DNA of 64,000 nt. Source: Gigantopelta aegis. Its lineage: Eukaryota; Mollusca; Gastropoda; Neomphalida; Peltospiridae. A program made the position numbers and the translations under genes. The notes under the pieces are model-generated. The model searched no databases, was not told where the DNA came from, and saw only the letters and a list, made by a program, of their open reading frames with translations. How positions within the stretch are numbered: the first letter of the stretch is position 1; every line of letters starts with the position of its first letter. This document shows, one piece after another, positions 447 through 52,600 of the stretch. The stretch covers positions 47,203,870 to 47,267,869 of the forward strand of contig NC_054712.1 in assembly GCF_016097555.1 (NCBI RefSeq), in the 5' to 3' direction.

Positions 447-615
447 ACATTCTGATAGCCAAACTGAGAAAGGGACAGGAACTGAAGATCAGAGCGTTTG
501 CCAGGAAAGGTTTTGCCAAGGAGCATGCTAAATGGAATCCCACGTCTGGTGTGTCATTTGAATATGACCCAGACAATGCCCTGCGACACACACTGTTCCC
601 AAAGCCAGAAGAATG
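447..615 (+). CDS. POLR2C: POLR2C exon (antepenultimate coding exon)
   Basis: Acceptor ttccag ends at 446. The exon starts with the last two bases of an Asp codon and ends in the first two bases of the Trp codon of PKPEEW, followed by the donor gtacgt at 616. It encodes the [11 protein letters not shown] to PKPEEW region. The exon reads [10 protein letters not shown], while the intronic copies of its edge read LYP. Tyr is also usual in animal RPB3 at this point. Confidence 0.95.
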
Positions 616-49600: not shown

Positions 49601-52600
49601 CCTGTTCGATGAACCGTGATACCAATCAAACAATTAGTGCACAAAATGGCCTCGGGGTGAAGCGTTAGTCTCGTTCAGACCATGCGGCTTCTCAAGACTT
49701 ATTTCAACCACACATTTAATTAATACCGACAAGGGGTTTTCTTAAGGGATCAAATTTGTAATACCCAAACCTTTCAATCTGATATTTCGATGCTATATAA
49801 ACTTTTACCTTGATGAAAATTTTAAGTTTGCAGTTACCAAAATAATATGTGATCTCTAATTCAATTTTGGACTGTCCCTTCTAAAATCTATCCGATGTTT
49901 AACCGAATGGTTCGGTCGACCTACCCTATGGGTCAAACACCTTCTTGAACACCGACAGGGTTCGAGCCAATGGGATTTTCAACTGTATACACGCACACAC
50001 ACACACACACACAATGTAACACAATAGTCAGGCACATATCTTATCGGAGGTCGGATATATATATATATATATATAAAAGACAAGTGGAGTTGTTTAAAAT
50101 TTTCATACATCACACAGAGAGAGAGAGTTAGAGAGAGAGAGAGAGTTATCAGAGAGGAGAGACCCTAGTGAGAGTCCCTAAACTGTCGAGAACATCTCCA
50201 CACTGCATCGTTTCCTGATGAACACCAATGAACAGCAGAATGACTAGCAACAACGTTTGTGTCATTCTAACCTCAATCATACCCATTGTTGGAAGAAATT
50301 CAATTTTCATGGAGGCATGGCATCACACTGATGACGATCAGATACCAACAAAAGTATTTTTCTGAGCGATTAGAATCCATATAATAGTTTTAGTATCCAA
50401 TGATAAGAAAAATGACGTCAAACAGGAGCATGTGACCAAGAATGCTAGTAATGCAACTTTTGATCACAAAGCATGAAGCTCGTGCAATTGACAGGACACT
50501 GCTGGAATATCGAAGGCAGTGGTTACACATTCATTTACTGAATTTTTTATGACCAGATTTCAAGTAAATTATATTCTATATGCAATTATTTGGTGCACAG
50601 GAACTTTTTCCGTGAGTATATATATATATATATTATATGACGCCATTATCTAATGAACAAAAAAACCTCCAAAAAACTTCAATCAATCAGCAAACAAACC
50701 AACAAACAATAAACAAACAATTAAAAAAAAAAATAATAAAAAAAATAAAGCTGTTCATTTGTACTTGACTGGGTAACTGAAACGGTGAATACACAGTGTA
50801 TTTGATTACCTCAAGACAATTGAAGTAATCGTATAAGTCCGGATACGTGACGTCATTGTGCAGCCGACCAATCGGGTGAATCCTATCATGAAGACTGTCG
50901 TAGAGAAAACGTCCTTCTGCGAGACCGGTCATCATGACGGAACTGTTAGGTGGTAAAACTTTATCCTAGATACACAAATATCAAAACATATTGTTATCTT
51001 AATTACGACGGAACTGTTAGGTGGTAAAACTTTATCCTAGAAACACAAATATCAAAACATGTTGTTATCTTAATTACGACGGAACTGTTAGGTGGTAAAA
51101 CTTTATCCTAGAAACACAAATATCAAAACATGTTATCTTAATTACGACGGAACTGTTAGGTGGTAAAACTTTATCCTAGAAACACAAATATGAAAACATG
51201 TTGTTATCTTAATTATGACGGAGCTGTTAGGTGGTAAAACTTTATCCTAGATACACAAACATCAAAACATGTTGTTATCGTAATCATGACAGAACTGTTA
51301 GGTGGTAAAACTTTATCCTAGAAACAAAATATCAAAACATGTTATCCTAATCATGACGGAACTGTTAGGTGGTAAAACTTTATCCTAGATACACAAATCA
51401 TGGGCAGATCCAGGACATTTTTTTTGGGGGGGGGGGGGGGGGGGGGAGGAATAAACCAAGAAAAAAGGAGCACATTAACTCATTAATAGGGCATCTTAAT
51501 AAAAGCTTTAATATTTGCAGTTAATATGAATGCATTTGTGTATATACATCACAGTGTACGAATGGAAGTGTACACTAAATGAATAGCTGCGGTTTTCTGG
51601 ACCGCTAGCTGCATTAATAGAGATCATTATATATGAGCCTGCAGGCCCGTCGGAGCATTTGTTTCAAGTGGGGTGGGCTAGTGATAAAGGTCGTTGTGAA
51701 GCATGGCACGATGTGCTTTGCCAGAGTTGGGGGGGGGGGGGGGGGGGGGTCCGGGGACATGCTCCCTCAAGGAAATTTTAAAATTGGATGGCTTTAAACG
51801 CCTTTCCTTGGCATCTGAATCGCAAAATTAGCCATTTTTAAACAATAATTTTAAAACAATTTTAAGCATTATTTTGCAAGTGTTATAGCCCAAGAATGTT
51901 TTTGTTTTTTCTTGATAACAAAATTACCCATTTTCAGACAGTGATCAGTTCCTCTTTTGGAGTTTTATAACCCAAAAATTATTATTTAGAAGAGTTCAAA
52001 CCCGTTACTCTTAGATCTCAATCACTAAATCATGAATTTTAGCGTTTGACCAGGGGTGGGAGAACGGGTGAGGAGGACCTAGGAAAAAGCCATAGAATCA
52101 ACTTTGGTTCGTATATAAGTATAACTATCATATATTTCATTGTAACTTGACTTTGATCACCTTTTTTAAAGAGCACTATTGTAGGGACGGCTCTGTCTAG
52201 GTAGGGCAGATATAGGGCCTACATGAAAACGATATAAAGGGGCACTTGTAAGAACTTGTAAATTAAAACTTTAAAAGGTACTATTCTAGGGACGGCTTGG
52301 TCTAGGTAGGGCAGAACTCTGTTTTGGCATATATCACATCTATAGGAACTCCCACATCTGAAACAGGGTCTCTGAGACATTTTCCCTTGCCTCGTTTTGC
52401 CAGACTGTGTTGTATTGTTTTAAAACACGTACCAGATACAGCATGGTTTTGAGGGCATTGTCGTACATTTCCTGCGGCGTCGTCATGTGAGCGAACGTGT
52501 CTGCGTGTCTGAAACCAAGAAAACAACGTCACAGTGAGGCAGTGTTTTATATTCTATACCACATCACAGTGAGGAAGTGTTTTTAAAGTGTGTACTCCCT

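Follow-up and report, generated by a model that had tools for sequence, protein, structure and literature searches.

Tandem duplications of exon-intron boundaries have been described in amphioxus, where they are called 'mirages' and occur in the genes for Adh3, troponin C, PGBD5 and the globins BflGb6/BflGb9 (PMC3087553, PMC3902484). The reported unit lengths are 10-72 bp in Adh3, 150-160 bp in the globins, and 60 and 108 bp in PGBD5 (PMC3087553, PMC3902484). Amphioxus mirages vary in length, with somatic instability in Adh3, and RT-PCR on the globins suggested that regular splicing is undisturbed by them; the mechanism behind them was termed unclear by the authors (PMC3087553). Two further phenomena are related to mirages. 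In human segmentally duplicated genes, internal tandem repeats vary at exon-intron boundaries (PMC2812944), and an intron can be gained via the tandem duplication of exon sequence that contains AG/GT (PMC4974935). For molluscs, no report of boundary-spanning arrays was found in the open-access literature that we searched. Papers on introns of abalone and Conus mention intronic repeats, of which none is named as boundary-spanning in the available parts of these papers (PMC6905558, PMC3862624).

Here, we analysed a 64 kb stretch of DNA from the deep-sea vent gastropod Gigantopelta aegis (the window), in which the genes POLR2C, PIP4P and AOAH each carry a tandem array whose unit spans an exon-intron boundary and in which many copies keep the AG or GT of the splice site. 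The likeness extends to minisatellite-like boundary duplication, to the involvement of donor as well as acceptor borders, to overlapping unit lengths, to the AG or GT kept in many copies and to neighbouring copies that are more alike. Since mirages have already been described and named in amphioxus, we regard the snail arrays as molluscan representatives of a repeat type that is known but has seldom been surveyed. They differ from the amphioxus examples in their mollusc host, in a copy number of up to 37 over 5 kb and in their presence in three unrelated genes inside one 64 kb window. Conversely, amphioxus offers data on length variation and somatic instability as well as RT-PCR results on splicing, whereas the snail arrays are known from one assembly. 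The first-pass annotation of this DNA knew of no described mechanism for such arrays; this agrees with the mechanism being termed unclear in print, but the phenomenon itself has been described.

Methods

Exons were located by tblastn with human protein queries, refined to borders of the form AG, exon, GT, and checked against the G. aegis proteins P0001 and P0121. The resulting exon map comprises 23 exons with 42 splice borders, or 43 borders after adding the AOAH exon 62430-62490; an AOAH exon in the interval from 57014 to 55749 could not be placed on it. Tandem arrays were detected with Tandem Repeats Finder (TRF). The 75 TRF rows were merged by hand into 19 arrays with a period of 10 or more, by joining overlapping or neighbouring rows and counting the PIP4P blocks around the insert as one array. 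Rows that were short or consisted of mono- or dinucleotide runs were dropped; these include 5236-5265, 6945-6969, 8862-8897, 23825-23864, 25149-25187, 37209-37239, 43749-43810, 45616-45644, 47321-47361, 50116-50162, 50711-50749 and 59779-60113. The enlarged set for the tests of array position consists of 10 arrays inside introns of the three genes, together with the AOAH exon 62430-62490.

Results and discussion

Structure of the genes and arrays

The identity of the three genes was supported by their spliced products. The POLR2C exon at the array has 82% identity to human RPB3, and in the spliced C-terminal half of POLR2C, query positions 1-128 align to residues 147-274 of RPB3 in PDB. When joined at the exon-proximal sites, the eight PIP4P exons in the window yield the annotated G. 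aegis protein P0001 (253/253 residues), with a match to Pfam Tmemb_55A (E 1.8e-91). The spliced C-terminal part of AOAH matches acyloxyacyl hydrolase in PDB (E 1.4e-73). The assembled AOAH query and the annotated P0121 match nearly completely exon by exon, and their overall identity is 89% because one mapped exon is without counterpart and P0121 translates an intron stretch.

The disagreement between P0121 and the mapped AOAH exons concerns the borders 57014 and 54070 and the mapped exon 55713-55749, which is missing from P0121; no arrays were found at these disputed borders. Within 53995-57083 (minus strand), P0121 is without the stretch that holds an NHRDYQN block, which is found in the paralogue P0122. 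Furthermore, P0121 translates positions 54195 down to 54071, which we take as intron. These oddities point to an erroneous gene model or else to a gene copy in decay.

Table 1. Exons, arrays and insert at the three genes (positions in the window)
Feature	Position	Strand	Basis
POLR2C (RPB3) exon, 3' edge seeding array	447..615	+	donor GT at 616
POLR2C donor-spanning array	575..1221	+	TRF: period 63, 10.3 copies; unit alignment, junction motifs
Degenerate array with POLR2C stop codon edge, into 3' UTR	3090..3399	+	repeat search; local straddling duplicates
PIP4P (TMEM55) exon, 3' edge seeding array	12302..12492	+	donor GT at 12493; protein P0001
PIP4P array, exon-proximal block	12430..12944	+	period about 64; TRF from 12454, start read off sequence
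Transposon-like insert splitting PIP4P array, 2.4 kb	12945..15324	+	ends CAGGGG...CCCCTG, read off sequence
PIP4P array, distal blocks	15325..17495	+	TRF and junction motifs
AOAH exon, 5' edge seeding array	50965-50810	-	acceptor AG at 50966-50967; junction present in P0121
AOAH acceptor-spanning array	50931..51398	-	TRF 50936-51398, period 71; junction motifs, alignment

In all three genes, TRF, the exon borders and the junction motifs agree that each unit of the array joins an exon edge to the adjoining intron (Table 1), as the first-pass annotation had proposed. The arrays are also present where it had placed them, except that those of POLR2C and PIP4P start inside the exon, at 575 and 12430, and not at the splice sites 616 and 12493, and that the PIP4P repeat is not continuous up to 17495 but interrupted by an insert.

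The POLR2C array contains ten units of 61-64 bp each, and its authentic unit combines the final 41 bases of the exon with the first 23 of the intron. A motif search recovered nine junction-like copies including the authentic one; the tenth unit has lost the GG at its donor. The same gene has a second, degenerate array around its stop codon (3101-3103), with a spacing of mostly 23-31 bp, of which TRF detects just 3178-3376.

The PIP4P array is the largest of the three, with 37 junction-like copies, including the authentic one, found by motif search and spread over about 5 kb. Its 64 bp unit takes about 58 bases from the exon and six, in most cases GTAAGT, from the start of the intron; in the authentic copy, the exon part (12430-12492) has five bases more. 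TRF reports the array with a period of 64 in three segments (12454-12944, 15324-15679 and 15891-17495), and within the distal part, the block 15893-16978 contains 17 copies at 96% matches. The insert that splits the array has inverted repeat arms near its ends (13020-13040 and 15277-15297) and is flanked by TAAGT on both sides; we presume from its appearance that it is a DNA transposon of the hAT type.

In AOAH, the array affects an acceptor. The unit consists of about 36 intron bases and about 35 exon bases, and the seven junction-like copies are spaced 67-71 bp apart, with borders at 50965 (authentic), 51036, 51107, 51175, 51246, 51317 and 51384. Two more arrays in AOAH introns lie close to a border without including it: 52526-53727 starts near the border 52508 and 62156-62411 ends near the border 62430, which places them 18-19 bp off an acceptor and a donor, respectively. 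A further AOAH intron contains an imperfect CTGCTA-type array of 1.6 kb (43943-45584) with a higher-order period of 65 bp.

The similar unit lengths in the three genes were considered as a possible clue. We rejected this clue: other arrays in the window have both similar and different periods, and as the 19 merged arrays range from 11 to 109 in period, the three unit lengths are not specially alike.

Position of the arrays relative to exon-intron borders

The first-pass annotation argued that arrays in three out of three genes are more than chance and point to a local process favoured at splice junctions. The count holds for the three recognisable genes; it corresponds, however, to only three of the 42-43 mapped splice borders. 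To what extent three straddling arrays exceed expectation depends on how the arrays are placed, and the following tests are all post hoc and concern a single window that was selected for looking odd. When whole arrays are placed plainly at random, which is the comparison that the first-pass annotation had itself named, 4.2 overlaps are expected and the three seen fall below this number (P(>=3) = 0.90). We judged this to be a poor null, because the placed arrays run through exons and destroy them, and added nulls that place a seed unit or that constrain the arrays with respect to exons. With random seed units, 0.50 straddles are expected in the whole window (19 arrays, P 0.013), and within genes 0.35 for 9 arrays (P 0.004) or 0.39 for 10 arrays (P 0.006). 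Placing whole arrays in introns, with no more than one unit allowed to reach into an exon, gives an expectation of 0.72 (P 0.027), which rises to 0.98 (P 0.060) when every array must also stay in the intron where it occurs. Thus, the tests suggest, to a degree that depends on the null, that arrays start at borders more often than expected.

Near misses were considered as well. Among the 10 genic arrays, three straddle a border and two more start 18-19 bp away, such that 5/10 lie across a border or no more than 20 bp from one (P 0.0014-0.0068 under the exon-constrained nulls, which is post hoc as the limit of 20 bp was chosen after the distances were seen). This leaves room for a real bias at borders.

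These numbers are what could be put forward for a local mutational process in which errors of replication or repair, for example at R-loops or a paused polymerase, start duplications preferentially at exon-intron borders. Several observations speak against it, in addition to the selected window and to plain random placement, which already predicts the overlaps. Local duplicates are commoner at random intronic positions than at borders: a local straddling duplicate was found at 4/46 coding edges compared to 271-299 of 1000 random intronic points across three score limits, and at 3/46 compared to 263/1000 at the strictest limit. Furthermore, the stop codon edge of POLR2C is the seed of another, degenerate array, and this speaks against a cause confined to splicing. 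Lastly, we looked for a hairpin tendency common to the three border units and found none, nor is it marked in any one of them (z of +0.74, -1.45 and +1.16); 11 units were folded, including these three, and the lowest z (-2.74) came from an intergenic array. A process directed to splice junctions is not needed to account for the arrays; we regard it as unlikely, while it is the strongest of the alternatives.

Splice sites in the copies

Most copies retain the dinucleotide of the splice site. GT is kept in 8/8 tested donor copies of POLR2C and in 35/36 of PIP4P, and AG is present in 7/7 AOAH acceptors. The donor copies match U1 with means of 6.6 and 7.2 out of 11 positions, compared to 7 at the authentic site. 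Since GT is kept and the U1 match about equals that of the authentic site, the decoy donors are neither purged nor strengthened.

We then asked what the use of a copy would do to the protein. A premature stop results at every tested site, that is at 8/8 in POLR2C, 36/36 in PIP4P and 6/6 in AOAH (n=50, not counting the tenth POLR2C unit, which has lost its GG). The copies in the arrays are therefore classified as intronic decoys, and none among the 50 was found to act as an in-frame exon or as a new intron boundary. In the annotated PIP4P and AOAH proteins, the authentic exon edge is joined straight to the neighbouring exon, and according to this annotation the exon-proximal site probably remains the one in use in both genes.

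Adjacent copies resemble each other more than copies that are at least three units apart, with similarities of 0.90 and 0.85, 0.90 and 0.82, and 0.86 and 0.82 in the three arrays (based on 35 of 37 copies for PIP4P), which is usual for minisatellites. Homogenisation among neighbouring copies is thus observed in all three arrays. The units also drift, and a steady difference between their exon and intron parts was sought in the three arrays and not found: varying columns make up 18/41 of the exon and 9/23 of the intron part in POLR2C, 55/74 and 3/6 in PIP4P, and 4/35 and 26/37 in AOAH.

The retention of splice sites in the copies (GT in 43/44 donors and AG in all AOAH acceptors) and the stop that follows from every decoy might be read as a sign that the arrays are kept for a function, in which repeated sites bind U1 snRNP or U2AF and so protect long introns, or else divert some of the transcripts to nonsense-mediated decay. 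The drift of the copies, in which the columns on the splice side are not consistently better preserved, is at odds with this reading, as is the changed donor AAA/GTGAAT (slash at the junction) in the largest uniform block (PIP4P, 15893-16978). We consider a function of this kind very improbable.

Misassembly is a common problem with tandem repeats, and of the two G. aegis assemblies that have been published, one was built from short reads, with a scaffold N50 of 121 kb (PMC7736800). Yet an assembly artefact is the least probable of the explanations. The chromosome-level assembly, from which the window presumably comes, used PacBio reads with Illumina polishing and Hi-C (PMC7895826); these reads came from fragments of 8-50 kb, which is enough to reach across each of the three arrays. 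Furthermore, the copies differ mutually at many positions and one array contains a transposon-like insert. The copy numbers may be inexact.

Origin and persistence of the arrays

We conclude that the snail arrays are probably molluscan mirages, i.e. ordinary short tandem duplications over a border that were enlarged and persist on the intron side. The first step would be a tandem duplication of about 60-70 bp that happens to straddle an exon-intron border; slippage or unequal exchange would then add further copies and homogenise them. The copies would land on the intron side, such that the splice site beside the intact exon would stay in use and the duplicated donors or acceptors, together with their scraps of exon, would leave with the spliced-out intron. 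Duplications inside exons would mostly be lost to selection, and those across a border would be tolerated because their extra copies become intron. We infer this mechanism of duplication as well as the neutrality of the arrays and the rarity or degradation of decoy transcripts.

A mirage origin is also compatible with the location of the arrays. The involvement of donor borders, an acceptor border and the edge of a stop codon is as expected if the spliceosome does not choose the seed site. The moderate excess at borders, if real, could result from survival instead of splice-directed mutation: an array that touches a constrained exon might not be cleanly deletable from the exon side, and its seed copy would stay intact.

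When comparing the snail arrays to the two related phenomena, we find both similarities and differences. The human repeats in segmental duplications are likewise of minisatellite size and located at exon-intron borders; they reportedly affect splicing and give rise to new introns in paralogues of recent origin (PMC2812944), whereas the tested snail decoys would all truncate the protein. In the described intron gain, a splice signal is copied along with exon sequence as in the snail, but there the duplication is associated with the gain of an intron (PMC4974935), whereas here an existing intron is enlarged and no copy is seen acting as an exon.

A wider reading is possible, which we hold only tentatively and think rather doubtful at present: coding-sequence edges (donors, acceptors and stop codons) might be preferred sites for the origin or survival of arrays in G. 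aegis and perhaps in repeat-rich molluscs. The multiplication of splice sites would then be a genome-wide and ongoing source of decoys and of material for new introns. Should coding edges truly carry an excess of arrays, the birth or survival of minisatellites would be linked to gene structure and intron gain.

The arrays described here extend boundary-spanning minisatellites from cephalochordates to a gastropod, and finding three of them so close together is a good reason to count such arrays across whole molluscan genomes. They are furthermore natural test cases of how the spliceosome chooses one site among up to 37 that are near-identical.
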